A stretch of 15,192 nt of DNA from Burkholderia sp. (lineage in GTDB: Bacteria; Pseudomonadota; Gammaproteobacteria; Burkholderiales; Burkholderiaceae). The notes under the pieces are model-generated. The model was not told the DNA's origin, searched no databases, and worked only from the letters and a program-made list of their open reading frames with translations. Made by a program: the position numbers and the translations under genes. Shown here one piece after another: positions 1 to 15,192 of the stretch. Location: the NCBI GenBank assembly GCA_028292565.1, contig JAQGMD010000132.1, positions 1 through 15,192 on the forward strand, given 5' to 3'. The first letter of the stretch is position 1. The number at the start of each line of letters is the position of its first letter.

Positions 1-261
1 GGTGCGGTGCAGCAGGGCCTTACTGTTCGGAAACCAGTGAGCCTCATGAAACCACGTATGAGGCAAGTATGGAACTGCGGCGTGGCACATTGTTTGCGCG
101 CTGCATGCGGATCCGACGCAGGACTGCTCCGCTGCACATCGACCGTGCATGGAGTTGTTCGCTAAGTTTTGATACACCGCTTATCATTTCCTTGCGGGAA
201 AGCAATACGTAATGTTGCAAGATCGTTAACCTGAAGATGGAACAACCAGACGAGACCGGCG
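1..261. other. Upstream stretch without a supported gene
   Basis: No reading frame here has recognisable protein character; open frames on the minus strand look like chance frames. The stretch is the 5' flank of the alpha/beta hydrolase gene. I could not find a convincing -35/-10 pair or a strong ribosome binding site, so the promoter of the next gene is not assigned. Confidence 0.5.
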
Positions 262-2220: not shown

Positions 2221-2871
2221 ATGAATACACGAGAACCTTCACTGGCCGGAAAGAACGTCGGCCGCTATCACCACGTCTGTGCATTCTTCGATAGTCGCGA
2301 CGAAGAATACTCGGTGCTGGGACCGTTTTTCAAGGAAGGGCTCGAGTGGGGAGAAAAATCGGTGCATATCGTCGATCCCCACCTGACTACCGATCATGTC
2401 GAGCGTCTGAAGGAATGCGGGATCGATACTGAGCACTGCCAGGCTTGCGGGCAACTCGATGTGCTGACCTGGGATGATGCCTACCTCAGCGGCGGCACGT
2501 TTGACCAGGAACGGATGTTGGGCGCGATTGAAGGCGTCCTGGCGGCGGGCCTTGAGGCCGGCTATCCAAAGATGCGGATCATGGGCAACATGAACTGGAC
2601 ACTCAAGGGCAATCCGGGCACGGAGCAAGTCATCGAGTTCGAGTCACGCGTCAACGAAACACTGGCTCGCAGCGGCCAGATGGCGGTCTGCGTTTATGAT
2701 TCCGCAAAGCTTTCCGGCGCGATGATGATGGACATTTTGCGTTCGCATCCGCTAACGCTGGTCGGTAACGTGATCTATGAAAACCCGTTCTACACGCCGC
2801 CGGAGCAGCTATTGAGTGAAATAAGGTCCCGCCACAGGGACCGGAGCGGCGGCGTCGCAACTATTAAATGA
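2221..2871 (+). CDS. MEDS-domain sensory protein
   Basis: A 216-residue soluble protein that is almost wholly one MEDS domain (methanogen/methylotroph, DcmR sensory domain; about residues 14-195). Seen are the RYHHVCAFF opening, the G-P-F-F-K-E-G-L-E-W-G-E-K block followed by a VHIVDP strand, a DVLTWDDAYLSGGTFD segment, the MRIMGNMNW strand and a late S-H-P-L-T-L-V-G-N-V-I-Y-E-N-P-F-Y motif typical of the family. Proteins of this family are thought to bind small organic ligands or act as partners of kinases; the ligand is unknown here. There is no DNA-binding or enzymatic domain. It shares an ATGA overlap with the hybrid kinase gene, so the two are translationally coupled and probably act as one sensory unit: this protein the input, the kinase the transmitter. 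Confidence 0.87.
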   Translation: MNTREPSLAGKNVGRYHHVCAFFDSRDEEYSVLGPFFKEGLEWGEKSVHIVDPHLTTDHVERLKECGIDTEHCQACGQLDVLTWDDAYLSGGTFDQERMLGAIEGVLAAGLEAGYPKMRIMGNMNWTLKGNPGTEQVIEFESRVNETLARSGQMAVCVYDSAKLSGAMMMDILRSHPLTLVGNVIYENPFYTPPEQLLSEIRSRHRDRSGGVATIK

Positions 2872-4562
2872 TTGAGCCCCGCGCGTCGCATGGGGACTCG
2901 CCGGACCAGGCAGGGGCGCTGATGCCCGCACAAGGCATTGAAGCGTTGGCTGGCGTGGAACTGCAGACCTGTCTTCGCGACCTGATGGGTTTGCTGGCCT
3001 TGCCGTCACTGTGGAGCGGCAGGGATCCCGATGTAGTTCTTCGCATTCTCGCAGAAGCGCTTGAAGGCGTCCTCCCGATCGAGGTATGCCACGTCACGGC
3101 TATATTCGATGTCAACGAGCCGCCGCTTTCCTTGCTGCGAATCTCCGGACAAGTGGTTGAACCCGGCAGCACCGGATGGTTCGACTTTACGCATGTCCCT
3201 GTGTCAGCGCTGTCGCGCGAGCCCACCGTCACGATAGAGCGGACGCCGCTTGGCGAACTGCGCATCGCCCGCATCGCCATGAGTTACTCCGGTAACGCCG
3301 CCGCCCTCGCGATTGGGTCCGTCCGCGGCGACTTTCCGCGGCCTGGTGAGATTATTCTGCTCCGGGCAGCCGCAAGCCTTGCAGCCAGCGGCCTGAGGAC
3401 GGCTCGCCTGGTGCAGGAGCGTGAGGACGCGCTACGGTCGAAGGACGAGTTCCTCGCCATGCTCGGTCATGAGTTGCGCAACCCGCTGGCGCCCATTGTT
3501 ACTGCATTGGATCTGATCAAACTTCGCGCCGGCGGCCAATTGACGCGAGAACTGCAGATCATCGAACGGCAGGTAAGGAACATGACCACACTGGTCGATG
3601 ACTTGCTGGATGTTTCGCGTGTCACGCGCGGCAAGATCGAGCTGAAGAAGGCGCCCGTGGACATTGCGTCTATCGTGTACAAGTCGATAGAGACGGCCAA
3701 ACCTTTATTGGAGCGGCACGCCCATCATCTGCGCGTGGACATAGCCTGGCCCGTACCGATCGTTAACGCGGATCCGATGCGACTGTCGCAGGTGATCGCG
3801 AATTTGCTCGTGAACGCGGCGAAATACACCCAGCCCGGCGGTGACATAGTGGTGAAGGCGACGTCCGTCGCGGGCGCGATGGAGTTGTCGGTCAAGGACA
3901 ATGGCATGGGCATCGATGCGAAGCTGCTGCCTCATGTCTTCGATTTGTTCCAACAAGGGCGCGTGACCATGGATCGTGCGGCCGGCGGTCTCGGCATTGG
4001 CCTTTCCATAGTCAAGTCGCTGGTAGGTCTGCATGGAGGCTCGGTTTCTGCCTATAGCGATGGCAGCGGGCGGGGGAGCGAGTTCATCGTCAGGCTGCCG
4101 TTATCGACAGTCCGGTCCACTGCAGCGGCCCCGGATGCCGTCGAAGTATCCGCGGTACCGCATGAAGGCAAGCCGCGCGAGCGGGTACTCGTGGTCGACG
4201 ATAACCGCGATGCTGCGGAGATGGTGGTAGAGTTTCTGACAATGGCGGGCCATGAAGCAGCGGTGGCGCATGACGCTCCGGAAGCGCTCGCGTTGAGCGA
4301 AAGTTTTCGACCAACCGTGGTCGTCCTCGATATCGGCCTGCCCATCATCAACGGCTATGAGCTGGCCATCATGATGCGCGAAAAGTGGGTCAACAGCGGA
4401 AGCAACGACGTGCCGCGAATGATCGCGCTGACCGGCTATGGGCTTGCTCATGACCGGGACAAAAGCCGGGAAGCCGGGATAGCGGTCCACCTCGTGAAGC
4501 CGGTTCCGCTGGAGAGCCTGCTGGACGCCATGGAGAATCGATCCGCATCGTTTGCCGTGTAA
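2868..4562 (+). CDS. Hybrid sensor histidine kinase with C-terminal receiver domain
   Basis: A 564-residue cytoplasmic hybrid kinase. Residues about 25-185 form a divergent GAF-like sensor region with no transmembrane segment. A HisKA domain follows with phospho-acceptor His201 in the GHELRNPLAPI H-box. The ATPase domain has an N-box with Asn312 and Asn316, a G1 box DNGMG at 344-348 and a G2 box GGLGIGLS from about 372. After a short linker comes a receiver domain with acidic pair Asp444/Asp445, phospho-acceptor Asp488 (VVLDIGLP) and Lys544 in the LVKP motif. All catalytic residues are present, so it should be active. No output domain and no nearby response regulator gene are present, so the phosphate probably goes to a partner encoded elsewhere, perhaps through a phosphotransfer protein. 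It is coupled to the upstream MEDS gene by an ATGA overlap. It converges with the LacI-family gene across 86 nt. Confidence 0.92.
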   Translation: MIEPRASHGDSPDQAGALMPAQGIEALAGVELQTCLRDLMGLLALPSLWSGRDPDVVLRILAEALEGVLPIEVCHVTAIFDVNEPPLSLLRISGQVVEPGSTGWFDFTHVPVSALSREPTVTIERTPLGELRIARIAMSYSGNAAALAIGSVRGDFPRPGEIILLRAAASLAASGLRTARLVQEREDALRSKDEFLAMLGHELRNPLAPIVTALDLIKLRAGGQLTRELQIIERQVRNMTTLVDDLLDVSRVTRGKIELKKAPVDIASIVYKSIETAKPLLERHAHHLRVDIAWPVPIVNADPMRLSQVIANLLVNAAKYTQPGGDIVVKATSVAGAMELSVKDNGMGIDAKLLPHVFDLFQQGRVTMDRAAGGLGIGLSIVKSLVGLHGGSVSAYSDGSGRGSEFIVRLPLSTVRSTAAAPDAVEVSAVPHEGKPRERVLVVDDNRDAAEMVVEFLTMAGHEAAVAHDAPEALALSESFRPTVVVLDIGLPIINGYELAIMMREKWVNSGSNDVPRMIALTGYGLAHDRDKSREAGIAVHLVKPVPLESLLDAMENRSASFAV

Positions 4563-4648: not shown

Positions 4649-5701
4649 TCAAGCGCTCCCCCGCTCCACCACCTGAAACCCCACATCAACCAGACGCTGC
4701 TCAACGTCCCGACCCTCAATCCGCTCAATCAACATCGCCGCAGCCAGCTTACCAATCCTGGTGCCGTCGATGCGCATCGTCGTGAGCGGCGGATCGGTAT
4801 CCTTCGCAAAGTTAAGATCACCATAACCAACCACGCGAAGACGACCCGGCACCGGCAAGCCTCTTGATCCCGCTTCAATCAACGCGCCCAGCGCGAGCGT
4901 GTCGGCGCCGCAGAAGATCGCATCGGTCTTTGGATGCTCCGACAAAAGGGTCGCCAATGCGCGGCGTCCATCCCCGAGATTGGCCGGTGATGCTATCGAA
5001 TAGAGAGGCACGGCGGCGCCCGTAGCCTTTTGCATTTCATCTGCAAACGCCTTGCTGCGCGCGAGCGCACGTCGATCTCCCGGCGTGATCAAGGCCGGAT
5101 GTCTCGCGCCGCGCGATTGCAAGTACTTTGCGGCCGCCTTGCCGACTTTCTGATGTGAGAAGCCGACCAGCATGTCGATCGGCGTCCGAGTGATATCCCA
5201 TGTCTCTACGACGGGGATGTCCGCCGCCCGCAAGCGTTGGCGGGCGAGGGCGGTATGCATCACGCCGGTGAGGACAATGCCGGCGGGCCGTCGCCCGATG
5301 ATCGCATCGAGCAGCGCGTCCTCGCGCGATTCGTCGTAGCCGCTCTGGCCGATCAGCAACTGATAGCCGGCCTCAGCCAGCGCAGTCGTAAGCGCTTCGG
5401 TGGTTTCCTGAAATACCGCTCCGCCCACGGCCGGAATCAGTGCGACGATCAAACGGCTGCGGTTGGACGCAAGCGACCCCGCCACCAGGTTCGGGACGTA
5501 GCCTGTTTCACGCACCGCGTCCTGCACCCGCTTCAAGGTTTCAGGCGATACCAGTTCAGGGGTGTTGAGCGCGCGCGAAATCGTCACCTTTGTCACACCG
5601 ACAAGATTGGCGAGTTCGCGCAGCGTTACTCCTCCCGTGCCACGCCGGGCGCGGCGCTGGCCATTGGGAGGAGGGGCTTCTTTAGATGGGCGTCTGGTCA
5701 C
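4649..5701 (-). CDS. LacI-family transcriptional repressor, GntR (gluconate) subgroup
   Basis: A 350-residue LacI-type regulator. After a basic N-terminal extension of about 22 residues, the helix-turn-helix spans about 25-45 (TLRELANLVGVTKVTISRAL). The hinge helix (VAGSLASNRSR) carries the central leucine that inserts at a CpG step. A periplasmic-binding-protein-like effector domain follows (about 82-350). From memory, the helix-turn-helix and the stretch with VAVGFDN-like MLVGFSHQ resemble E. coli GntR more than sugar-type LacI proteins, which suggests an aldonate or aldarate inducer. The start is GTG at 5701 because a stop lies upstream in frame and no ATG fits; its ribosome binding site is weak. 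It is divergent from the binding protein-dehydratase-aldolase genes, and the intergenic region holds a perfect GntR-like operator, so it probably represses that operon and possibly itself. Confidence 0.92.
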   Translation of the reverse strand: MTRRPSKEAPPPNGQRRARRGTGGVTLRELANLVGVTKVTISRALNTPELVSPETLKRVQDAVRETGYVPNLVAGSLASNRSRLIVALIPAVGGAVFQETTEALTTALAEAGYQLLIGQSGYDESREDALLDAIIGRRPAGIVLTGVMHTALARQRLRAADIPVVETWDITRTPIDMLVGFSHQKVGKAAAKYLQSRGARHPALITPGDRRALARSKAFADEMQKATGAAVPLYSIASPANLGDGRRALATLLSEHPKTDAIFCGADTLALGALIEAGSRGLPVPGRLRVVGYGDLNFAKDTDPPLTTMRIDGTRIGKLAAAMLIERIEGRDVEQRLVDVGFQVVERGSA

Positions 5702-5725
5702 GGGAACTCACTGTTGAAGCGGGCG

Positions 5726-5731
5726 ATTGTA
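5726..5731 (-). promoter_or_regulatory. Probable -10 box of the repressor gene
   Basis: Read on the minus strand the hexamer is TACAAT (five of six matches to TATAAT), about 25 bases before the GTG start. Seventeen bases upstream lies TAATAC (5749-5754 on the plus strand), a weak -35 match. It overlaps the proposed -35 box of the operon on the other strand, so the two promoters would compete. Confidence 0.4.
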
Positions 5732-5755
5732 GCAATTATCAGGAAAGTGTATTAC
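5727..5755 (+). promoter_or_regulatory. Probable sigma-70 promoter of the sugar-acid operon
   Basis: TTGTAG (5727-5732), a 17-bp spacer and TATTAC (5750-5755) give a modest sigma-70 match. Transcription would begin near 5762, just before the palindromic operator at 5769-5784, a placement suited to repression. Confidence 0.4.
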
Positions 5756-5768
5756 GATCCGGGTACCG

Positions 5769-5784
5769 ATGTTACCGGTAACAT
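5769..5784. promoter_or_regulatory. Perfect 16-bp LacI/GntR-type operator
   Basis: ATGTTACCGGTAACAT is a perfect palindrome with a central CG, as expected of LacI-family operators. From established knowledge, it is near-identical to the ATGTTA-N4-TAACAT operators of E. coli GntR/IdnR. It lies between the divergent GntR-like repressor gene and the operon, 55 bases before the first operon gene. The repressor encoded next to it is the natural ligand. I found no second copy in the window. Confidence 0.87.
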
Positions 5785-5838
5785 TAAATGTGGCAAAGAT
5801 CACAACACTGCTGACATGCACACCATCATGGAGACAAA

Positions 5839-6849
5839 ATGAGCAAATCCAGTTTCAATCAAAAGCGCAGGCAACTGATCCTCGGCGCGGCGGGCGGTCT
5901 CGCCGGCGCTGCCACAGGTGCATTCCCGTTGGCCGCGCTGGCCGACAGCAACTATCCCTCACGCCCGGTCACCTTCATCTGTCCGTGGCCTGCGGGCGGC
6001 ACCGCTGATGCGACGATGCGTGTATTGATGCGCGAGATGGCCAAGCACCTCGGCCAGCCGGTGGTCTTCGAAAACCGCGCCGGGGCATCGGGCATGATAG
6101 GCGCACGCGCTATCGCCGCTGCGCAGCCCGATGGCTATACGATCGGGCAAATCCCGATTTCGGTTACGCGGTTCTCGCAATTGGGCAGCGTCACCTTTGA
6201 TCCGCTGAAAGACTTCACCTATCTGGCACGTACTTCCGGGCAGACCTTCGGCATCGTTGTGCGCGCGGATTCGCGCTACAAGACGCTGGCCGACCTGGTG
6301 AACGACGCCAAAGCCAACCCCGGTAAAGTGAACTACGCCACATCGGGCGTTGCCGGCGCAACCCACGTCGGCATGGAAGAATTCTGCATGGCTGCCGGCA
6401 TCAAAATGAACCATATCCCGTACAAGGGTGGGGCGCCGGCATTGGCTGACCTGCTGGGCGGACAGGTCGATGTACTGGCCGACTCCAGCTCGTGGGCGCC
6501 GCATGTCGAGCAGGGCAAGCTCCGCCTGCTGGCAAGCTGGGGCGAGCAACGTCCGCCGCGTTTCAAAGGCGCGCCGACACTGAAGGACGCTGGCTATGAC
6601 GTTGTGGTCGATGCGCCCAACGGAGTTGGCGCACCGGCCGGCCTTGATCCCAAGGTCGAAGCAAAGCTGCGCGCCGCGCTGCGCAAGGCGGTGATGAGCG
6701 ACGAGTTCAAACAGTCTTGCGACAAGATCGATGCGCCGGTGATGTATCTCGATGCCGCCGATTATCGCAAGTTCATCCTCGAACAATACGTACGTGAAAA
6801 ACGCCTGATCGAGAAGCTCAACCTCAAAGAGCAGATCAAGAACGGATAA
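5839..6849 (+). CDS. Bug-family (TctC) periplasmic solute-binding protein
   Basis: A 336-residue extracytoplasmic binding protein of the tripartite tricarboxylate transporter type. The N terminus has a twin-arginine-like motif (Arg10-Arg11, RRQLIL), a hydrophobic stretch and an ALA-DS cleavage site near residue 35, so export by Tat or Sec is likely. YPSRPVTFICPWPAGGTADATMR is the typical Bug first strand and carboxylate-binding loop. NYATSGVAGATHVGMEEFCMAAGIKMNHIPYKGGAPALADLLGGQVDV is the central family signature. Bug proteins bind carboxylic acids. There are no tctA/tctB membrane genes nearby, as is usual for the many orphan Bug proteins of Burkholderiales, so the membrane partner must be encoded elsewhere. 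It is the first gene after the operator and lies 24 nt before the dehydratase gene, so its ligand is probably the sugar acid that the operon degrades. Confidence 0.93.
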   Translation: MSKSSFNQKRRQLILGAAGGLAGAATGAFPLAALADSNYPSRPVTFICPWPAGGTADATMRVLMREMAKHLGQPVVFENRAGASGMIGARAIAAAQPDGYTIGQIPISVTRFSQLGSVTFDPLKDFTYLARTSGQTFGIVVRADSRYKTLADLVNDAKANPGKVNYATSGVAGATHVGMEEFCMAAGIKMNHIPYKGGAPALADLLGGQVDVLADSSSWAPHVEQGKLRLLASWGEQRPPRFKGAPTLKDAGYDVVVDAPNGVGAPAGLDPKVEAKLRAALRKAVMSDEFKQSCDKIDAPVMYLDAADYRKFILEQYVREKRLIEKLNLKEQIKNG

Positions 6850-6873
6850 CCACGTTTATAGAGCAGATACCAG

Positions 6874-8424
6874 ATGACCATCGTTACTACCAAGGATTTT
6901 TCACGCCCACTGATCCGGCTTCATCAAGCGGACAATGTCCTGATCGCCAGGGAACCGCTGACGTTGGGACAGCAGATCGAGGTCGGCGGGGCTGCCGTAC
7001 GCATGCGCGCGCAGATCCCGGCCGGACACAAGGTCGCAGCCGTTCGCATTTCGCGTGGCGAATCAGTGCGCAAGTACGATACGGTCATCGGGCTCGCGGC
7101 ACGCGATATTGAACCCGGCGATCACGTCCATTCGCATAACATCGAGTTCATCGAATATGAGCGCGACCCGGGCTTCGGCCTGGATGTGCGTCCGGTCGAC
7201 TATGTACCCGAGGCCGAGCGGGCAACCTTCATGGGCATCGTGCGTCCCGATGGACGCGTCGGCACACGCAACTTCGTCGGGCTGTTTTCATCGGTCAATT
7301 GCTCTGCGACCGTGATCAAGAAAATCGCGGAATGGTTTACACCGGAACGCCTGAAGGATTATCCGAACGTCGATGGTGTGGTCGCATTCGCTCAGACCAG
7401 CGGTTGCGGCATGTCTTCCCCCAGCTATCACTTCGATGTCCTGCGTCGCACGATCGCCGGCTATGTGCGCCATCCAAACCTCGCGGGCGCCCTGATCGTC
7501 GGGCTCGGTTGCGAACGCAACCAGGTCTCTGACCTGGTCGACTCGCAGCAGCTGACGCAAGGAGCGTTGCTGCGGACCATGGTGATGCAGGAAATGGGCG
7601 GAACGCGCGAGACGATCGAAGCCGGCATTGCGGCTGTCAAGGAAATGCTCCCGACCGCGAACGCGATACGCCGCCAGCCTGTGCCTGCAAGCCACATCAA
7701 GGTAGGCCTGGAGTGCGGCGGCTCCGATGGATTTTCCGGTATCACTGCCAATCCGGCGCTCGGCGCGGCAATGGATATCCTCGTGCGTCATGGCGGTACC
7801 GCGATCCTTTCTGAAACGCCGGAAATCTATGGCGTGGAAAACATGCTGACGCGCCGCGCCGTCACGCCGGAAGTCGGTCAAAAGCTGCTCGATCGCATCG
7901 AATGGTGGAAGGAATACACCCGCGGGCAGAACGGCCAGTTCAACGGCGTCGTCGGACCGGGCAACCAGCAGGGCGGTCTCGCCAACATTTTCGAGAAGTC
8001 GCTCGGCTCCGCCATGAAGGGCGGCACCACTCCTTTGCAAGCAGTCTATGAATATGCTGAGCCGATCGACAAGACGGGTTTCGTGTTCATGGATTCGCCT
8101 GGCTACGACCCGGTTGCATCGACCGGCCAGATCGCCAGCGGCGCCAACCTGATCTGCTTTACCACCGGGCGGGGTTCGATGTTCGGTTCCAAGCCGGCCC
8201 CGACCATCAAGCTGGCGAGCAACTCGCCGATGTTCAATCGTTTAAAAGAAGACATGGACATCAACTGCGGCATGGTGCTCGACGGCGAAGTGTCGGTGCA
8301 GGAGATGGGGCAGTTGATCTTCGAAGAAATCCTGCGCGCCGCGTCCGGGCAGAAGACGAAGAGCGAAGCGCTTGGACTGGGCGACCATGAGTTTGTGCCG
8401 TGGCATCTTGGTATCGTCAGTTAG
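6874..8424 (+). CDS. Galactarate/altronate dehydratase family (UxaA/GarD-type)
   Basis: A 516-residue cytoplasmic dehydratase with both parts of the family. The N-terminal SAF domain (about 12-95) ends in the metal-ligand-like HVHSHN motif (84-89). The large domain has GRVGTRN (127-133), GLGCERNQ (210-217), GLECGGSDG (278-286) and a late FTTGRGSMFG motif. Enzymes of this family use a divalent metal to remove water from a sugar acid, giving a 2-keto-3-deoxy acid. Length suits both UxaA (altronate) and GarD (galactarate). The EKSLGSAMKGG stretch has Ser where I recall Cys in E. coli UxaA and Ser in GarD, and TTP after it recalls GarD, so an aldarate substrate is favoured but not proven. The protein is complete (ends FVPWHLGIVS). 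Its stop codon abuts the MITE-like element: the first base of that element is the last base of TAG. Confidence 0.93.
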   Translation: MTIVTTKDFSRPLIRLHQADNVLIAREPLTLGQQIEVGGAAVRMRAQIPAGHKVAAVRISRGESVRKYDTVIGLAARDIEPGDHVHSHNIEFIEYERDPGFGLDVRPVDYVPEAERATFMGIVRPDGRVGTRNFVGLFSSVNCSATVIKKIAEWFTPERLKDYPNVDGVVAFAQTSGCGMSSPSYHFDVLRRTIAGYVRHPNLAGALIVGLGCERNQVSDLVDSQQLTQGALLRTMVMQEMGGTRETIEAGIAAVKEMLPTANAIRRQPVPASHIKVGLECGGSDGFSGITANPALGAAMDILVRHGGTAILSETPEIYGVENMLTRRAVTPEVGQKLLDRIEWWKEYTRGQNGQFNGVVGPGNQQGGLANIFEKSLGSAMKGGTTPLQAVYEYAEPIDKTGFVFMDSPGYDPVASTGQIASGANLICFTTGRGSMFGSKPAPTIKLASNSPMFNRLKEDMDINCGMVLDGEVSVQEMGQLIFEEILRAASGQKTKSEALGLGDHEFVPWHLGIVS

Positions 8425-8610
8425 GCGCCGCGCAGGAATAACTTGTGCAATTTGGCGGACGTAGCGGGATGCGATGCAAGGCGCGAGGAGGAGTCATAGC
8501 GAGCTATGGCGACGACGAGCAACACGTTCGCCAGAAGAAATCAGAACAGGCTCTCTGCAGCGCGCCCGCTATGGCCAGCAAAATTGTGCAAGTTATTTCT
8601 GCGCGGTGCC
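8424..8610. mobile_element. MITE-like element with long terminal inverted repeats
   Basis: A 187-bp non-coding unit. Its ends GGCGCCGCGCAG and CTGCGCGGTGCC begin an inverted repeat that matches at 30 of 36 aligned positions (8423-8458 against 8576-8611). It continues more loosely, with one gap, to about 8478 and 8559. Four of the six differences would be G-U pairs in RNA. The unit is flanked on both sides by TTA (8421-8423 and 8611-8613), which may be a 3-bp target duplication. The middle has a small hairpin CATAGC-GA-GCTATG (8495-8508). There is no transposase frame. It sits between dehydratase and aldolase genes and would fold into a long hairpin in the operon mRNA. Confidence 0.72.
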
Positions 8611-8673
8611 TTAAATTCGATCGCGACCTCGATTGCCGCAATCAGGCAAAATAAGCACGACGGATCAAACAAC

Positions 8674-8679
8674 AGGAGA
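8674..8679 (+). promoter_or_regulatory. Ribosome binding site that sets the aldolase start
   Basis: AGGAGA lies four bases before ATG 8684. This supports that ATG rather than the upstream in-frame start at 8633, which would add 17 residues that lack family similarity. Confidence 0.78.
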
Positions 8680-8683
8680 CACG

Positions 8684-9490
8684 ATGTACGACAACAAATT
8701 CAAAGCCGCAATTGCAAGCGGTAAACCGCAGATCGGGATGTGGCTTTCGCTGGCAAACGGATACACCACCGAAATCTGCGCCACTGCGGGCTTCGACTGG
8801 CTGCTGATCGACGGTGAGCATGCGCCGAACGATTTGCGCAGCACGCTGGAGCAACTGCAGGTAGTGGCGCCATACCGATCCCACCCCATAGTGCGACCGG
8901 TAAGCGGCGACACTCAACTCATCAAGCACCTGCTCGACATCGGCGTGCAGACCTTGCTGGTCCCTATGGTGAATACGGCGGAGCAGGCACAGCAAATTGT
9001 GTCCGCGATGCGGTATCCGCCGCTTGGTATCCGCGGCGTAGGCAGTGCCGCTGCCCGTGCATCGCGCTGGAACCTGCGCACGGATTATGTGGATCGCGCC
9101 GATGCCGAGGCCTGCCTGATAGTGCAGGCGGAAAGCCGGCAGGCGCTGGAAAACCTCGAGGCGATTTGTGCGGTGGATGGGGTCGACGGTGTATTCATCG
9201 GGCCCGCGGACTTAGCGGCATCGCTTGGTCACCGCGGCAAGCCGGGACATCCGGAAGTGCTGCAAGCGATCGAAGACGCCATCAAGCGGATCATTGCCAG
9301 CGGCAAGGCTGCCGGCATACTGACCTCCGATAACGCGCTCGCGAAGCGCTATATCGAACTGGGATGCAGCTTTGTCGCAGTAGGTATCGAGGCAGGCTTG
9401 CTCGCGCGCGCGAGCAGGGCGCTTTGTGCGGAATTTCTCGGCAACGGCGATGCACAATCGACTGCGCCGGCAGGCGGAAGCGTGTATTGA
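8684..9490 (+). CDS. HpcH/HpaI-family class II aldolase (HpaI/GarL-like)
   Basis: A 268-residue metal-dependent aldolase that should cleave a 2-keto-3-deoxy (or 4-hydroxy-2-keto) acid to pyruvate and an aldehyde. The family residues are in place: His46 in DGEHAPND, Arg71 in IVRP, Glu150 in VQAES (metal ligand) and Asp176 in GPADL (metal ligand). [20 protein letters not shown] is the characteristic central motif. By eye it is nearer to E. coli HpaI than to GarL, but enzymes of this group accept many aldehydes. Paired with a galactarate/altronate dehydratase it probably acts on 5-keto-4-deoxyglucarate (giving pyruvate and tartronate semialdehyde) or on 2-keto-3-deoxygluconate (giving pyruvate and glyceraldehyde). 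It is third in the operon, separated from the dehydratase gene by the MITE-like element, which may lower or stabilise its message. Confidence 0.93.
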
Positions 9491-10044: not shown

Positions 10045-10061
10045 TTGGCACACTCCTTGCT
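10045..10061 (+). promoter_or_regulatory. Sigma-54 (RpoN) -24/-12 promoter
   Basis: TTGGCACACTCCTTGCT fits the sigma-54 consensus TGGCACG-N4-TTGCW at every strongly conserved base. The -24 GG is at 10047-10048, the -12 GC at 10059-10060, and the spacing GGCAC-N5-TTGC is exact. Transcription should start near 10072, giving an untranslated leader of about 86 bases before the TorT-like gene. The only other gene-proximal TGGCAC sequences seen lack the -12 half. An enhancer-binding activator and ATP are required for such promoters; none is encoded in the window. Confidence 0.85.
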
Positions 10062-10157
10062 GCCTTCATGAATGAACAATCTGTAATTTGTTTTGCAGTC
10101 GTACCGATTCTGTAGTCCATGTAACTGCTTTCAGCCAATTCACATGAAGGGTTCCCG

Positions 10158-11213
10158 ATGCGATCAATAAAAAAAATCTGCCTCCTGGCGGCGCTGGTCT
10201 CCACTGCTTTCGGCGCTCATGCGCAAACCAAAAAATGGTGGCCGATCGACGTATTCGACGGTTCAACGCCGGGCAAGGTCGTCAAGTACTCGCCTCTGGA
10301 AAAGGCGCAGAAGCCATGGAGGATCTGCGTTCTTTTCCCGCACATGAAGGACAGCTACTTCACTGCCGTGAATTACGGCATAGTTGAGGAAGCGCGCCGT
10401 CTCGGTGTCAGCGTTTCCGTCTTTGAAGCAGGCGGCTACGACCAGCTTCCACGTCAGATTTCACAGTTCGACGACTGCCGCGCATCGAACTTCGATGCAA
10501 TTATCGTCGGCGCCATTTCTGAAGCCGGCCTGAAGCAAAAGCTGGAAGAAGCCGCAGCGGCGAAGAAGCCGGTCATCGCGACCGCCAACCCAATCATGAA
10601 TGCGCCGATAGCGGGACGCGCCTATAACTCGTTTCAGAACGCAGGCGCGAATACCGGCAAGGCCTTGCTTGAAAAGCTGAAGGGCGCTCCTGCAAAGGTT
10701 GTCACTTTCCCCGGCCCGCAGGGATCGGGATTTGCTGAAGCGCTGCGCGACGGATTTGTCGGTACGCTGAAGGGATCGAAGGTAGAGATACTGGACCAAA
10801 AGTTCGGCGATACGGGCGTCAGCGTTCAGATGCGCCTGGTCCAGGACGCGCTGCAGACGCATCCCAAAATGAATGTCATCTGGGGCACTGCGCCTACAGC
10901 CGAAGCCGCGGTCACTGCTGTTTCCGAAGCTGGCCGCGACGACATTGTGATCCTTGCATCCTATGAAAACCAGGCAATGCTCGACGCCGTCAAGCGCAAC
11001 GAGATTTTCGGGTTCGCTACCGGCTATCCGGTGCTCACCGGCCGTATCGCGCTGGACATGGCGGTGCGCAACCTGGAGCAGAAGAACACGCATACGTTTG
11101 TTCATCCGATTCCGGGCTTCGTCTCCAAGGACACCGTCGGAAAAACCGATCTGAGCCTCGTGTTCGCTCCCGCAAGCTTCAAGCCCGTCTACAAGGTCGA
11201 GGCCGGCAAGTAG
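10158..11213 (+). CDS. TorT-like periplasmic binding protein of an ABC importer
   Basis: A 351-residue periplasmic-binding-protein type I protein. Residues 1-22 are a Sec signal peptide (KK charge, hydrophobic core, AHA-QT cleavage). The mature N terminus, with W-P, PWRICVLFPHMKDSY, NYGIVEEARRLGV and VFEAGGYDQLPRQISQFDDC, closely follows what I recall of E. coli TorT, the TMAO-sensing partner of TorS. This includes Cys57 and Cys107, which could form the disulfide. The end SFKPVYKV also matches TorT GFRPVYF. But no torS or tor reductase gene is near; instead an ABC ATPase and two permeases follow, so here it most likely acts as the substrate-binding component. The ligand is unknown. The gene follows the sigma-54 promoter by about 86 bases; AAGGG before ATG 10158 is a fair ribosome binding site. 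Confidence 0.88.
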   Translation: MRSIKKICLLAALVSTAFGAHAQTKKWWPIDVFDGSTPGKVVKYSPLEKAQKPWRICVLFPHMKDSYFTAVNYGIVEEARRLGVSVSVFEAGGYDQLPRQISQFDDCRASNFDAIIVGAISEAGLKQKLEEAAAAKKPVIATANPIMNAPIAGRAYNSFQNAGANTGKALLEKLKGAPAKVVTFPGPQGSGFAEALRDGFVGTLKGSKVEILDQKFGDTGVSVQMRLVQDALQTHPKMNVIWGTAPTAEAAVTAVSEAGRDDIVILASYENQAMLDAVKRNEIFGFATGYPVLTGRIALDMAVRNLEQKNTHTFVHPIPGFVSKDTVGKTDLSLVFAPASFKPVYKVEAGK

Positions 11214-11226
11214 CTCAGCAACTATT

Positions 11227-11249
11227 CCTGCACCGCGAGCCGGTGCAGG
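11227..11249 (+). terminator. Intercistronic hairpin between binding protein and ATPase genes
   Basis: CCTGCACCG, a 5-base loop and CGGTGCAGG form a perfect 9-bp stem 13 bases after the binding-protein stop. No T-run follows. Such hairpins after the first gene of ABC operons commonly protect the binding-protein mRNA or cause partial termination, so that the binding protein is made in excess over the membrane parts. Confidence 0.6.
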
Positions 11250-11273
11250 ACCTTGTGGGAATGGATCAGCAAT

Positions 11274-12809
11274 ATGACAGAGTTAGCCCCGTTGTTGTCG
11301 GTCCGCGGAATCAGAAAGCGGTTCGGCAGCAACATCGTGCTGAAAGACATGGACCTCGAGCTCCGAGGAGGAGAGATCCATGCTTTGCTCGGAGAAAACG
11401 GCGCAGGGAAATCGACACTCATTAACCTCATCACGGGAATATTTCCGCCTGATGCGGGTGAAATGCGGTTCGCAGGCCAGTCGATCGTCGGGCGCACACC
11501 CTATCAGTTGCGGCAGATGGGGATCAGCGCCGTGTTCCAGGAGTTCAGCCTGGTTCCCGAAATGACGGTGGCGGAGAACCTGTTCCTCGGCCGTGAGATG
11601 ACGAAGGGCGGTTACCTGTCGCGTGCTGCGATGCGGGCGCGTTCCGAAGCCGTTATCACCGACCTCGGCTTTGCGTTATCGCCTGACCAAACGATCAAAA
11701 CACTTTCGCGCGCCCAGCAGCAAATGGTGGAAATTGCCAAGGCGCTGTTGGCCGATGTGAAGCTGCTCATCCTCGACGAACCGACGGCGTCGCTCACGGA
11801 ATCGGAAGCCGAGAAACTGTTCGAGCTGATCGCCCGCCTGAAATCGCAGGGCGTCGGCATCATCTATGTGTCGCACCGGATGCCGGAAATCCGGCGGCTG
11901 TCAGACCGGGTAACCATACTTCGTGATGGTCACCGGGTTGGGACAGTGAACACCCGGGAGTGCGATGACAACCACTTGATCGAAATGATGGTGGGTCGTC
12001 CGATCGATCTGCTGTTTCCGAAGATCAGACATGCGCCGGATGCGGCACGCCTTCAGGTCACGGGTCTTACGTTGAAAAACGGACTCGTGAGCGACGCCAG
12101 CATCAAGGTTCGGGCGGGTGAGGTGGTCGGCATTGCCGGTCTCGCGGGCTGCGGGAAATCGGAGCTGCTGCGAGCCATATTCGGGCTCGAAAAAATCGCG
12201 TCCGGCTCCATCATGCTTAACGCGGCGCCGGTCAACGACCCGACGCCTGCCAAACTGCTCGGGCGGCATGCCTGCTATTTCACCTCGGATCGTGTCGCGG
12301 AAGGGCTGGCGCTGAACCGTCCGATCCGCGAGAACATCACCATGTCGTCTCTCGACACAGCAAAGTTTTCAGGCAATGGCATCCTGAATCGGCGCGCCGA
12401 GACGCGCGAAGCGACGGAAATTGCCAAACGGCTGCAAGTGCGACCGCTGGACATCGAGGCGCATGCGGGACGCCTGTCGGGAGGGAATCGGCAGAAAGTG
12501 CTGCTCGCCCGAGGATTTGCGCGGGACATCGATCTGTTCCTGTTCGATGAGCCGACCGTCGGCATCGATGTCGGCGCCAAGCTCGAGGTCTACCAGCTCA
12601 TTCGCGACATTACGGAGGCCGGCGCGGCGGTATTGATGGCATCGTCGGATCTTCCCGAGATATTGCATCTCTGCAGGCGGTCTTATGTGATGCACCGATC
12701 CAGGATCGTTGCGGAATTGGTTGGCGAGGATCTTACCGAAACGCGCGTCCTTAACCATTTCTTTGGTGACGACGCCAAACAGCCGGCGGGCGAGGGGCTC
12801 ATCTTATGA
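11274..12809 (+). CDS. Sugar-type ABC importer ATPase with two nucleotide-binding domains (RbsA/LsrA-like)
   Basis: A 511-residue fused ATPase. Domain one has Walker A GENGAGKST (40-48), a Q-loop region VFQEFSL, signature LSRAQQQ (about 144-150) and Walker B ILDEPTAS (Asp168-Glu169). Domain two has Walker A GLAGCGKS (289-296), signature LSGGNRQKV and Walker B LFDEPTVGID (Asp425-Glu426). It powers import through the two permeases encoded next. The second Walker A keeps Lys295, whereas the matching site is often degenerate in RbsA-type proteins, so both sites may hydrolyse ATP. I chose ATG 11274, where the family's usual start falls. A TTG at 11253 would add seven residues with no family match. 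The ribosome binding site is weak (GTGGGA). The stop overlaps the first permease start by ATGA. Confidence 0.93.
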   Translation: MTELAPLLSVRGIRKRFGSNIVLKDMDLELRGGEIHALLGENGAGKSTLINLITGIFPPDAGEMRFAGQSIVGRTPYQLRQMGISAVFQEFSLVPEMTVAENLFLGREMTKGGYLSRAAMRARSEAVITDLGFALSPDQTIKTLSRAQQQMVEIAKALLADVKLLILDEPTASLTESEAEKLFELIARLKSQGVGIIYVSHRMPEIRRLSDRVTILRDGHRVGTVNTRECDDNHLIEMMVGRPIDLLFPKIRHAPDAARLQVTGLTLKNGLVSDASIKVRAGEVVGIAGLAGCGKSELLRAIFGLEKIASGSIMLNAAPVNDPTPAKLLGRHACYFTSDRVAEGLALNRPIRENITMSSLDTAKFSGNGILNRRAETREATEIAKRLQVRPLDIEAHAGRLSGGNRQKVLLARGFARDIDLFLFDEPTVGIDVGAKLEVYQLIRDITEAGAAVLMASSDLPEILHLCRRSYVMHRSRIVAELVGEDLTETRVLNHFFGDDAKQPAGEGLIL

Positions 12810-13810
12810 GCGCAGCCATGACAATGACGAAGAGCCCGGTCTCTTTCGCGGTGATACGAACGGCATTCCTGCCGGCGCTGATACTCCTGTTGGCAGTCAT
12901 TACGGCCATCGTCGAACCACGGTTTCTTTCCCAAATCAACACCACCAACGTGCTGCGCAATGCGGCATTCCTTGCCGTGATCAGTGCCGGGCAGATGTTC
13001 GTGATCGTAGGCGGCGGTTTCGATCTCTCAGTCAGCGCCGTGGTCGCACTGACGAGCGTGGTATCGGCACTGGTGATGGGAACGTTGGCATCTCTCTATC
13101 CCGACAGCATCGCACTGATCATTGCGGGCGGCGTACTCGCCGGCCTGGCAACAGGAGCGCTCGTGGGCGTGTTCAACGGACTGTGCGTTTGCCTGCTGAG
13201 AGCATCGCCATTCATGGTTACGCTGGGAAGCATGTCGATCGCGGCCGGCGTCGCGTTCCTGCTGACGGCCGGTACGCCGATCTACGGCTTGCCTGCTGAA
13301 TTCACACGTGGCTTCGGACGGGCGATGTGGCTGGGGATCCCGGTCCCTGTGTATATTGCCGTCCTGCTTTGCGTTGCGGTGTGGTTCCTTCAGCAGCGTA
13401 CCGCGGCAGGTCGCCACCTGTATGCCATTGGTGGCAATCCGCATGCGGCACGGCTGTCCGGAATTTCGGTTGGCCGCAACCTGGTCGCGATTTATGTGAT
13501 CAGCGCAGCGCTCGCGGCACTGACCGGCGTTCTTTTGACTGCGCGCGTGGGCTCCGGGCAGGCGACGCTCGGTTCGGACCTGATGCTGCAAAGCATAGCC
13601 GCATGCATGATCGCACGCGTGAGCCTGAACGGCGGTGTCGGGCGTATAGAGAACGTCGTGCTTGGCGCGCTATTCCTGTCACTGCTCAATAACAGCATGA
13701 ACCTCACGCGCATAGACAGCAAGGCGCAGACGATCGTCATGGGCCTGATTGTCGTCGTTGCGGTCGCGATAGACCAGTTGAGCAGAAAGAGGTCCGTCCA
13801 TGAAAGATAG
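12806..13810 (+). CDS. ABC importer permease 1 (RbsC/BPD_transp_2 type)
   Basis: A 334-residue inner-membrane protein with about eight to ten hydrophobic segments. Family marks are GQMFVIVGGGFDLSVSAVVAL, the GVFNGLCVCLLRASPFMVTLGSMSI block, and YAIGGNPHAARLSGI, the cytoplasmic loop that contacts the ATPase. Near the C terminus the stretch AACMIARVSLNGGVG has IAR where family members usually have IGG; the second permease keeps IGG there. The two permeases are clearly paralogous and should form a heterodimeric channel, as in LsrC/LsrD. It overlaps the ATPase gene by four bases and the second permease gene by eleven, which indicates translational coupling. Confidence 0.92.
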   Translation: MSAAMTMTKSPVSFAVIRTAFLPALILLLAVITAIVEPRFLSQINTTNVLRNAAFLAVISAGQMFVIVGGGFDLSVSAVVALTSVVSALVMGTLASLYPDSIALIIAGGVLAGLATGALVGVFNGLCVCLLRASPFMVTLGSMSIAAGVAFLLTAGTPIYGLPAEFTRGFGRAMWLGIPVPVYIAVLLCVAVWFLQQRTAAGRHLYAIGGNPHAARLSGISVGRNLVAIYVISAALAALTGVLLTARVGSGQATLGSDLMLQSIAACMIARVSLNGGVGRIENVVLGALFLSLLNNSMNLTRIDSKAQTIVMGLIVVVAVAIDQLSRKRSVHER

Positions 13811-14786
13811 CCGCGCAATTTCGCTTTGGCCGGCAGGCGGCGCTCGGCAAAGACCGACGGTGCGAGCGCTGGTCCTTCCGGCCATGATGCTGGCAATGGT
13901 GGCGTGCTTCGCCGTCACGGCGCCTGATTTCCTGTCGTTCAGGAATATGCAGAACATCATGGTCCAGGCAAGTTACATCGCGGTGTTCGCTTGCGCTCAG
14001 ATGATTGTGCTGGTTGTACGCGGGCTTGACCTGTCGCTTGGCCACACCGTCTCGACAGTCAGTGTGCTTTATGCGTTAGTGGCTGTGGGCGGTGGATTTG
14101 CCGAAGTGCTCGGGCCGTCACAAACGCTCGCTGTTGCGGCCGCGCTTACGGTGGCCGTACTGGCAGGTCTCTTTAACGGCCTGTGCGTTGCGTACCTGAA
14201 CGTCAATGCGTTCGTAGTCACGCTTGCGAGCATGAATGTCCTTTTGGGTGTGGCCTCGATGCTCTCCGACGGACATCCGGTCGGCGGTGTGCCGGATACG
14301 TTCAGCACGATTTTCTACAGCGGAAGTTTGCTTGGCATTCCGGCGCCTCTGGCGTGGGGCGCCGGTGTTCTCCTGGTGCTCCATTTCGGATTGACCAACA
14401 TGCGGGTAGGGCGCGGCCTGTACATTATCGGTAGCAACCCGCGAGCAGCCGTGCTTGCAGGGCTGGCGGAGAAGCGGCTGATCGTGTTCGCCTACGTTGC
14501 ATGCTCGGTCATCGGAGCGATCGGCGCACTGATGCTTACGGCGCGCACCGGCTCCGGCGAACCTAACCTCGGCGGGAACATCACGCTGCAAAGTATCGCC
14601 GCGGCTGCAATCGGCGGCGTGAGCCTGCGCGGAGGAGCGGGTGGCGTTCTTGCCGCGCTATTGGGCGCCTTGTTCATCACCATCCTGTCGAATGGGATGA
14701 ACTTCATGCAGATTAACGGATACATACAGCAGATTGCTTTAGGACTGGTGATCGTGGCGGCGGTTTCATTCGACAGACGGGATTAG
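13800..14786 (+). CDS. ABC importer permease 2 (RbsC/BPD_transp_2 type)
   Basis: A 328-residue inner-membrane protein, paralogous to permease 1. It has the QMIVLVVRGLDLSLGHTVSTVSVLYALVAV block, a LFNGLCVAYLNVNAFVVTLASMNVLLG segment, the YIIGSNPRAAVLAGL loop toward the ATPase, and a full AAAAIGGVSLRGGAGG motif near the C terminus. ATG 13800 lies inside the end of the permease 1 gene, 11 bases before its stop ends, with AGAAAGAGG upstream as ribosome binding site. It is the last membrane part of the importer. A REP-like hairpin and then a nitrilase gene follow. Confidence 0.92.
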   Translation: MKDSRAISLWPAGGARQRPTVRALVLPAMMLAMVACFAVTAPDFLSFRNMQNIMVQASYIAVFACAQMIVLVVRGLDLSLGHTVSTVSVLYALVAVGGGFAEVLGPSQTLAVAAALTVAVLAGLFNGLCVAYLNVNAFVVTLASMNVLLGVASMLSDGHPVGGVPDTFSTIFYSGSLLGIPAPLAWGAGVLLVLHFGLTNMRVGRGLYIIGSNPRAAVLAGLAEKRLIVFAYVACSVIGAIGALMLTARTGSGEPNLGGNITLQSIAAAAIGGVSLRGGAGGVLAALLGALFITILSNGMNFMQINGYIQQIALGLVIVAAVSFDRRD

Positions 14787-14792
14787 ATATGT

Positions 14793-14862
14793 AGGGTGGG
14801 CACCCCCGTGCCCACGCGGTTTCGCAATTGTCCGTTCCGCCTGGGCACGGGGCGCCCACCCT
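14793..14862. repeat. REP-like hairpin B (GTAGGGTGGGCAC type)
   Basis: Arms of 27 and 26 bases (14793-14819 and 14837-14862) are inverted copies with two mismatches and one single-base gap around a 17-base loop. The stem is very GC-rich. It shares the outer GTAGGGTG start with the hairpin at 9546-9593. It lies 7 bases past the permease 2 stop and could slow transcription or protect the importer mRNA from 3' decay, which would separate nitrilase from importer expression. Confidence 0.8.
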
Positions 14863-14920
14863 GCGTTTTCAGGCGCCGCTTGACTCGGAGCAGGCTGAGA
14901 AAAGCCAAACAACAACCAAC

Positions 14921-14928
14921 AAAGGAGA
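14921..14928 (+). promoter_or_regulatory. Ribosome binding site of the nitrilase gene
   Basis: AAAGGAGA lies six bases before ATG 14935, a strong Shine-Dalgarno match that fixes the nitrilase start. Confidence 0.8.
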
Positions 14929-14934
14929 CATACG

Positions 14935-15192
14935 ATGGAATTTAAAGTTGCCGCCGTCCATGCCGCACCGGTTTTCATGGACACATGGCGTAGTGTGGAC
15001 AAGGCTGTGGAACTCGTCATGCAGGCAAAACAGGAAGCGATCGAGCTGCTTGTTTTTCCCGAGGTCTTCCTGCCCGGCTACCCATACTTCATCGACTGTT
15101 ACGCGCCGCGTATGATGGATACCACCATCGCTGCCTATCAAAACGCATCGGTCGAAATCGGCGGCCCGGAAATCCGCAAAATCCAGAACGCC
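14935..15192 (+). CDS. Nitrilase (carbon-nitrogen hydrolase superfamily), 3' part outside the window
   Basis: The first 86 residues of a nitrilase, which would convert a nitrile to a carboxylic acid and ammonia (or, less likely, be a related amidase). The opening VAAVHAAPVFMD with a later VFPEVFLPGYPYF is characteristic of the true nitrilase branch; Glu43 in FPE is the first residue of the Glu-Lys-Cys catalytic triad. The Lys and Cys would lie beyond the window end. The frame is open to the last base. It follows permease 2 on the same strand after 148 bases that hold a REP-like hairpin. It may be the last part of the sigma-54 operon or have its own promoter; none was recognised in the gap. 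Confidence 0.88.
   Translation, partial: MEFKVAAVHAAPVFMDTWRSVDKAVELVMQAKQEAIELLVFPEVFLPGYPYFIDCYAPRMMDTTIAAYQNASVEIGGPEIRKIQNA

Follow-up and report, generated by a model that had tools for sequence, protein, structure and literature searches.

A TorT-type ABC importer, probably for lactam-type nitrogen compounds, between a predicted sigma-54 promoter and a nitrilase gene in Burkholderia sp.

The window analyzed here is a stretch of 15,192 nucleotides from Burkholderia sp. (contig JAQGMD010000132.1 of assembly GCA_028292565.1), the last part of which holds the genes of a predicted ATP-binding cassette (ABC) importer that would take up lactam-type nitrogen compounds. Four tightly packed genes on the + strand, encoding a substrate-binding protein (SBP) of the TorT family, a double ATPase and two permeases, are preceded by an intergenic stretch of 667 bp with a match to the sigma-54 promoter consensus, and are followed, after a gap of 148 bp, by the start of a nitrilase gene (Table 1). 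A first-pass annotation made from the sequence alone had placed these same elements on one strand, and the open reading frames, the protein families and the perfect promoter site confirmed that arrangement. With a Peripla_BP_4 SBP, an ATPase carrying two ABC_tran domains and BPD_transp_2 permeases in a single unit, the four genes follow the plan of CUT2-type importers.

Table 1. Coordinates of the importer genes and adjoining features in the window
Feature	Position	Strand	Description
Predicted sigma-54 (-24/-12) promoter, TGGCACACTCCTTGCT	10046..10061	+	96 bp before the SBP start codon; 0 mismatches to TGGCACN5TTGCW
SBP, TorT-family, of a CUT2-type importer	10158..11213	+	351 aa; Peripla_BP_4 and NCBIfam TorT (NF008185)
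Double (fused) ABC ATPase	11253..12809	+	ABC_tran twice; ATG at 11274 is the likelier start
ABC permease 1	12806..13810	+	BPD_transp_2; 4 bp overlap with the end of the ATPase gene
ABC permease 2	13800..14786	+	BPD_transp_2; 11 bp overlap with permease 1
REP/BIME-like long inverted repeat, 74 nt	14791..14864		Between permease 2 and nitrilase; half-element pattern once in the window
Nitrilase, N-terminal 86 aa	14935..15192	+	CN_hydrolase (PF00795); Glu43 at 15061-15063; window ends 258 bp into the gene

Relatives of the SBP were collected from named genomes (16 loci), from 74 plasmid records, of which 12 regions picked by hand were read, and from three samples of genomes. In these samples, 4 of 369 genomes from one class had a match (at 1e-20), as did 39 of 397 from the order to which an Ensifer genome belongs (at 1e-30) and 28 of 399 from the order of genome G112 (at 1e-20). 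We presume the last order to be Burkholderiales, since G112 encodes an 81%-identical GarD-like protein and since P0001, a twin of the SBP with 99% identity, is named 'Burkholderiales bacterium'. The match places that were read, including those already known as named loci, numbered 36 of 44 in the Ensifer order, 20 of 29 in the presumed Burkholderiales order and 5 of 5 in the class. After de-duplication, this gave 76 TorT-like loci besides the window, many of them cut by contig ends: 52 are ABC-linked (L093 being counted here even though a kinase is also present), 12 have a TorS-like hybrid kinase, and 12 have neither. The controls were CUT2 importers of the Ensifer order, retrieved with a sugar-type SBP instead of the TorT-like one (40 loci from 29 genomes), one of which had no ATPase near its center and was dropped, leaving 39 for the neighbor counts. 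Because gene calls by codon score were poor for some loci (e.g., L007, L088 and L152), neighbors were labeled by tblastn, using Pxp and Hyu query genes taken from the plasmid loci L019-L021, which are themselves among the counted loci; "Pxp-type" denotes family membership and not a proven 5-oxoprolinase.

The neighborhoods of these relatives differ strongly by type of locus. Of the 39 ABC-linked TorT-like loci that have at least 6 kb on each side, 34 have a Hyu gene or a minimum of two Pxp-type genes within 9 kb, compared with 1 of 17 TorT-like loci without an ATPase (Fisher test, 7e-9) and 0 of 39 control loci (8e-17). When only the order of the controls is considered, the figures are 17 of 20 ABC-linked TorT-like loci versus 0 of 39 controls. 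Over all 76 loci, counted within 10 kb, Pxp or Hyu genes were found at 40 of 52 ABC-linked loci, 1 of 12 kinase-linked loci and 1 of 12 loci with neither, this last one (L147) being a contig end of 3.3 kb. Eight further plasmid loci were kept outside these counts; the seven ABC-linked ones (L220-L226) all have Pxp-type or Hyu genes, and the kinase-linked one (L227) has none. Five ABC-linked loci with adequate flanks have no Pxp or Hyu genes within 9 kb: Pfam domains at four of these indicate an amidase (L006), an amidohydrolase (L068 and L017), and an isochorismatase-type hydrolase together with an arylmalonate-decarboxylase-type protein (L084), while at L064 a HyuB match lies slightly beyond the limit. 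These exceptions fit a theme of varied carbon-nitrogen (C-N) hydrolases, yet such enzymes are common, and a tally of "any C-N hydrolase" (38 of 39) was dropped as circular, since the loci without Pxp or Hyu genes had themselves supplied the amidase, amidohydrolase and isochorismatase queries.

Further genes were seen to accompany these importers. Pxp-type genes beside them come with biotin carboxylase and carrier genes at L226 (16565-20604), L223, L224, L225 and L021, and L226 also has biotin synthesis genes, which hints at a biotin-dependent step in which the PxpBC-like proteins may take part. At least one xanthine-dehydrogenase-type subunit gene lies within 9 kb at 12 of 39 TorT-like ABC loci versus 0 of 39 controls, and all three subunits are present at L019, L021, L064, L065, L070, L076, L085, L086 and L089, as if an N-heterocycle were hydroxylated before its ring is opened.

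A maximum-likelihood tree of 75 SBPs places the window in a clade of 20 rows with support of 100/99; the other 19 members are all ABC-linked, and 14 of them have Hyu genes. The kinase-linked TorT-like proteins belong to other clades and differ at positions 122, 145, 242, 270 and 290. The closest loci in the presumed Burkholderiales order (L141, L142 and L143), with SBP identities of 59-61%, have a common layout, in which a HyuB-HyuA pair and a sigma-54-like site precede the SBP, ATPase, permease 1 and permease 2 genes, and a second HyuB-HyuA pair and a class III aminotransferase follow. L141 and L142 also have a short-chain dehydrogenase between the downstream pair and the aminotransferase, PxpB- and PxpC-like genes ahead of the layout, and LysR, PxpA-, AccB- and AccC-like genes just beyond it; at L143, these Pxp-like, Acc-like and LysR genes were not found in the stretch covered. 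In all three loci, the Hyu pair upstream reaches scores of 1135-1153 and 1117-1126 bits, above the NCBIfam cut-offs for the caprolactamase equivalogs CapA and CapB (1000 bits). Given these CapAB genes directly upstream in the three closest loci and the linkage to Pxp and Hyu genes across the family, the importer most likely takes a lactam-type nitrogen compound. Past the lactam cluster of L142, at 17789-19903, a gene encodes a 704-aa protein with a tyrosinase-like copper-site region, as judged by eye.

The promoter match shows a similar distribution. The sigma-54 consensus TGGCACN5TTGCW is matched without mismatches at a single place in the whole window, both strands included, where 0.01 matches would be expected, and such a match arose in 3 of 200 shuffles. 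Allowing at most one mismatch and a distance of up to 500 bp from the SBP start, a sigma-54-like site is present at 4 of 10 relatives of the window's sub-clade (L141, L142, L143 and L068; 0.03 expected), and at none of the 74 other TorT-like loci (0.55 expected) or the 40 control loci (0.29 expected); pooled over all relatives, this amounts to 4 of 84 versus 0.58 expected. On the basis of the predicted promoter, transcription of the operon would depend on RpoN. NtrC-like sites, looked for by pattern within 480 bp upstream in five loci, were not found. A second sigma-54-like site (TGGCACATTGTTTGCG, window 83-98), with one mismatch, lies 163 bp before an alpha/beta-hydrolase gene at 262-1197.

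The SBP itself resembles TorT in family, predicted fold and pocket. It scores 291 bits against the NCBIfam TorT model NF008185 (cut-off 200) and falls below the cut-off of a second TorT model, TIGR02955 (204 of 310 bits). NF008185 was passed by all 10 proteins tested, 5 of them ABC-linked and 5 TorT-like from loci without ABC genes; since it accepts both alike, this model does not tell function. The ABC- and Pxp-linked SBP of L021 passes even TIGR02955. An AlphaFold model of the window SBP (mean pLDDT 90.7) finds its best fold match in 4yhs, with template-modeling (TM) scores of 0.86/0.91, followed by the TorT structures 3o1i and 3o1h, which come ahead of ribose-binding proteins. Alignment columns with the same residue in every one, or almost every one, of the 54 relatives tabulated include P61, H62, K64, D65, G93, Y94, N144 and P187, and the shared PHxKD pocket motif is present in the window SBP, which also keeps the sub-clade residues E122, P145, E194, W242, P246, E270, N271, Y290 and P291 (E194 is also common to the Pxp group). 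When aligned to 2ioy, the ribose-binding protein of T. tengcongensis, the window SBP does not keep the polar positions presumed to contact ribose by analogy with E. coli RbsB.

At two positions of the putative pocket, the window SBP departs from nearly all of its relatives. It has phenylalanine at 68 (10359-10361) and at 192 (10731-10733), both of which would be ligand contacts judging from the alignment to ribose-binding proteins. Among the 120 best database homologues, which include the twin P0001, tryptophan occupies position 68 in 117 and position 192 in 119; among the loci, it does so in 72 and 71 of 74, respectively. Over 195 aligned sequences, the window has both changes in common only with P0001 and the distant L150, and a shift of substrate by way of these replacements is possible. 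A correlation between pocket and hydrolase (phenylalanine at 68 or 192 in the ABC-linked L012, L084 and L150, none of which has Pxp or Hyu genes) was rejected, being post hoc and resting on three loci, two of which have only about 3 kb upstream.

Three proposals of the first-pass annotation thus find support in these comparisons: control by sigma-54 (from the perfect site and its recurrence in the sub-clade), a TorT-type binding pocket (from the 2ioy and TorT alignments, the conserved columns and the modeled fold) and import of a small nitrogen compound (from the Pxp-type and HyuAB genes beside the ABC-linked relatives). Its remark that TorT is not part of an importer fits the TorT of E. coli and Vibrio, which is not known to serve transport, but does not extend to the TorT-like proteins at large, as 52 of the 76 loci are ABC-linked.

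The nitrilase requires separate treatment. A profile built from the window fragment and three relatives found P0146, a protein of 346 aa that is 100% identical to the fragment over its 86 aa and that is very probably the complete form of the window nitrilase. P0146 contains Glu43, Lys127 and Cys161 in the motifs FPEVF, HRKLQ and CWEH, which are presumably the catalytic residues and of which the window fragment covers Glu43 only. Against the Nit6803 model TIGR04048 it scores 221 bits, short of the cut-off (503). The fragment has few relatives, with matches in 13 of 250 genomes of the presumed Burkholderiales order (at 1e-8, best identity 44%) and in 3 of 185 genomes of another sample. The gap before the gene (14787-14934) folds at -72.7 kcal/mol (z -6.5), with none of 200 shuffles as stable, and the inverted repeat within it, which the first-pass annotation does not mention, could end, slow or stabilize the transcript.

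Recurrence of this nitrilase beside the importer was not observed. The first-pass annotation had read the importer and nitrilase as one system for a nitrile or a nitrogen-rich small molecule, and neither the conserved unit nor the nitrile substrate is borne out: no nitrilase was detected within 10 kb at any of the 52 ABC-linked loci, many of which have cut flanks, or of the 12 loci with neither, and one was detected at 1 of 12 kinase-linked loci. In the sample searched, which did not take in the genomic context of P0001, a nitrilase beside the importer was found in this strain only, the outcome that the first-pass annotation had named as counting against its reading. Among five close genomes, three (G1021, G924 and G547) have nitrilase homologues, with at most 36% identity and on contigs other than that of the importer. 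Conversely, the nitrilase loci that were read around (L176, L177 and L178, and the Streptomyces plasmid loci L018 and L022) contain no TorT-like importer; the nitrilase of L177 does have two ABC-ATPase genes nearby, but of another type (27-28% identity). A conserved nitrilase-importer pair was accordingly rejected, having been found neither in the 76 TorT-like loci, nor in the listed plasmid matches, nor in the nitrilase loci read. Among the matches listed, four Rhodococcus plasmids have a nitrilase and a TorT-like gene, about 16-18 kb from each other; the one inspected (L017) is no operon, as numerous other genes and one for an IS110 transposase lie in between. From its distribution, the nitrilase pairing looks like a lineage-specific addition.

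Taking this evidence together, we consider it reasonably probable that positions 10158-14786 encode a sigma-54-controlled importer for lactam-type compounds, with a nitrilase downstream in this lineage and with C-N hydrolases that release the nitrogen. The importer would have the RbsABC/CUT2 architecture, and its SBP, with the fold and pocket of TorT, would belong to a clade that serves transport and not TorS signaling. In the periplasm, the SBP would capture a cyclic amide of the lactam type, small and weakly charged, or a nitrogen compound much like it, which the permease pair and the double ATPase would carry inward as a nitrogen source and from which cytoplasmic C-N hydrolases would release ammonia or an amino acid. 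The hydrolase of the relatives would be of the ATP-dependent lactamase type (Pxp-type, HyuAB or CapAB), and in the present lineage a nitrilase is encoded after the long hairpin, which may or may not serve this pathway.

A number of observations weigh against this interpretation. The replacement of two near-invariant tryptophans by F68 and F192 means that the substrate may differ from that of the relatives. No Pxp, Hyu or Cap genes were detected in the 10 kb upstream of the operon, the window covering 4 kb downstream of the SBP and ending early in the nitrilase gene, and 12 of the 52 ABC-linked loci have no Pxp or Hyu genes in the stretch covered. The substrates of the partner enzymes are themselves uncertain given their sub-cut-off scores: the CapA/CapB cut-offs are missed by the downstream Hyu pair of L142 and by the pairs at L019 and L020, and the equivalog cut-offs by the Pxp-type proteins of L142 (PxpC, 222 of 500 bits; PxpB, 76 of 146), the PxpC-like protein passing only the broader 5-oxoprolinase/urea-amidolyase model TIGR00724 (281 bits, cut-off 230). 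As to regulation, the sub-clade used for the promoter count follows the tree, but it was chosen as a group once the sites were already known from an earlier scan; and motifs of the GAFTGA/ESELFGH type revealed no enhancer-binding activator in the gene calls, so that such an activator would act from elsewhere. Finally, our literature search returned no transport or binding measurement for any member of the family.

Alternative explanations differ mainly in the part they assign to the nitrilase. It may be an unrelated neighbor with its own transcription, beside a lactam-type importer of the ordinary kind, as in the interpretation above, that has its hydrolase encoded at another place in the genome, and we regard this as a serious possibility, albeit one that falls short of being probable. 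The hairpin and the 148-bp gap are what one would expect of such a boundary, relatives of the fragment are scarce, and the homologues in G1021, G924 and G547 lie on other contigs than the importer. On the other hand, the nitrilase is on the same strand, no sigma-70-like promoter was found on the + strand at 14786-14935 (although this test is weak), a hairpin does not necessarily stop transcription, and the pocket has diverged from that of the lactam-linked relatives. The opposite possibility, a dedicated operon for uptake and hydrolysis of nitriles, in which the SBP takes a polar or charged nitrile (e.g., a cyano-amino acid or cyano-pyridone) and the nitrilase hydrolyzes it after import with release of ammonia, seems unlikely to us. 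It would account for the shared strand and gene order, for a promoter of the nitrogen type, for a P0146 that looks intact and is 62% identical to named nitrilases, and for the double change from tryptophan to phenylalanine, which is as expected had the substrate changed. Against it stand the absence of a nitrilase within 10 kb in the ABC-linked relatives, and the position of the gene behind a gap with a strong hairpin, whereas the ATPase and permease genes overlap. Moreover, small neutral nitriles would hardly require a pump.

Two further explanations concern the importer itself. An ordinary CUT2 importer for a sugar of the ribose, arabinose or xylose type is suggested by the best NCBIfam models, which for the ATPase are AraG, xylose, GguA and RbsA and for the permeases are likewise sugar importers. 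All of these scores remain far below the cut-offs, e.g., for AraG (450 of 689 bits) and AraH (200 of 378 bits); together with the loss of the presumed polar ribose contacts and the complete lack of Pxp and Hyu genes at the control loci, this renders a sugar importer highly improbable. We assign just as little credence to a trimethylamine N-oxide (TMAO) system, in which a true TorT would sense or import TMAO. The NF008185 score, the rank of TorT as second-best fold match and the PHxKD motif are in line with it. However, the SBP does not reach the TIGR02955 cut-off, the window genes scanned include no TorS-like neighbor of the SBP and no TorR, TorA or TorCAD, and the kinase-linked TorT-like proteins belong to other clades and differ at the five positions given above.

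The lactam-type importer and the diverged pocket can also be combined in a single, more tentative reading, which we think rather doubtful as a whole: a sigma-54-controlled lactam importer that was re-tuned by the replacement of two pocket tryptophans by phenylalanine, and in which a nitrilase has replaced the ATP-dependent lactamase, so as to form one operon of importer and nitrilase. Its substrate might be a cyclic amide with a nitrile group, for which our guess would be a cyano-lactam or a cyano-pyridone such as ricinine. In this combined reading, the ABC-linked "TorT" proteins would make up a large family, so far without a name, that imports lactams, 5-oxoproline and hydantoins.

Irrespective of the nitrilase, we favor placing the importer in a so far unnamed family of ABC importers whose SBPs are of the TorT type and whose substrates would be lactam-type nitrogen compounds. 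Bacterial uptake of lactams, such as caprolactam from nylon, 5-oxoproline and hydantoins, is a largely open subject, and an ABC family that is strongly linked to lactam hydrolases and hidden under the name of a TMAO sensor provides a testable candidate. The linkage suggests that many proteins labeled as TMAO sensors are really lactam importers; if this is true, the annotation "TMAO reductase system periplasmic protein TorT" is, for the ABC-linked proteins, an error to be corrected. Among the matches listed in our literature search, which covered titles, the openings of abstracts and few subscription papers, there was no TorT-type lactam importer and no TorT beside a nitrilase.

The remainder of the window holds other genes. 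At 2221-4562, a protein with a MEDS (DcmR-type sensory) domain is followed by a hybrid histidine kinase (2868-4562) with HisKA, HATPase and receiver domains, 5.6 kb upstream of the SBP. A separate sugar-acid cluster occupies 4649-9490, and consists of a LacI/GntR-type regulator on the - strand, a TctC receptor, a galactarate/altronate dehydratase-like protein and an HpaI-type aldolase, which at 398 bits exceeds the TIGR02311 cut-off of 369. Rfam gave 0 matches at gathering score.

Among known systems, several resemble single parts of the locus. The nitrilase, as represented by P0146, shares the CN_hydrolase domain and the Glu-Lys-Cys residues with nitrilases of the Nit6803 type and of the cyanide-dihydratase type, but differs from the former in that P0146 stays below the cut-off of their model; the nearest named nitrilases are two UniRef entries from uncultured organisms (P0136 and P0151, 62% identity). 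With TorT of the TorTSR system (3o1h and 3o1i), the SBP shares the fold and, within the pocket, the positions PH.KD.Y, GGY, Asn and Tyr, at 26-27% identity over about 300 columns; unlike that TorT, it is encoded with an ABC importer and has no TorS-like partner beside it. The closest solved structure, 4yhs from Bradyrhizobium sp. BTAi1 (43% identity), was deposited as an ABC-transporter solute-binding protein. Importers of the RbsABC/AraFGH type (CUT2) likewise have a periplasmic SBP, a double ATPase and BPD_transp_2 permeases, and differ in that the window SBP is of the TorT type, without the presumed polar sugar contacts, and in that its relatives have Pxp and Hyu neighbors. Known uptake of 5-oxoproline proceeds through transporters of unrelated types, as far as the accessible part of the source describes, namely PxpT of the APC superfamily and the TRAP receptors DctP6/7, the resemblance lying in a partner enzyme of the PxpABC/5-oxoprolinase kind (PMC13274462). 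Nor would this be the first ABC importer tied to caprolactam, since the polyamine-type importer PP_0411-4 contributes to growth on caprolactam in engineered P. putida, according to the available portion of that report (PMC11879879). For the caprolactam pathway of P. jessenii, the portions of the two papers at hand present uptake by ABC proteins as a mere suggestion and report induced binding proteins of other types, and TorT is absent from that text (PMC6061476, PMC8453981). The CapA/CapB equivalogs and the class III aminotransferase that flank the importer at L141-L143 belong to the same enzyme classes as those of caprolactam catabolism in P. jessenii, as given in the accessible text (PMC6061476).

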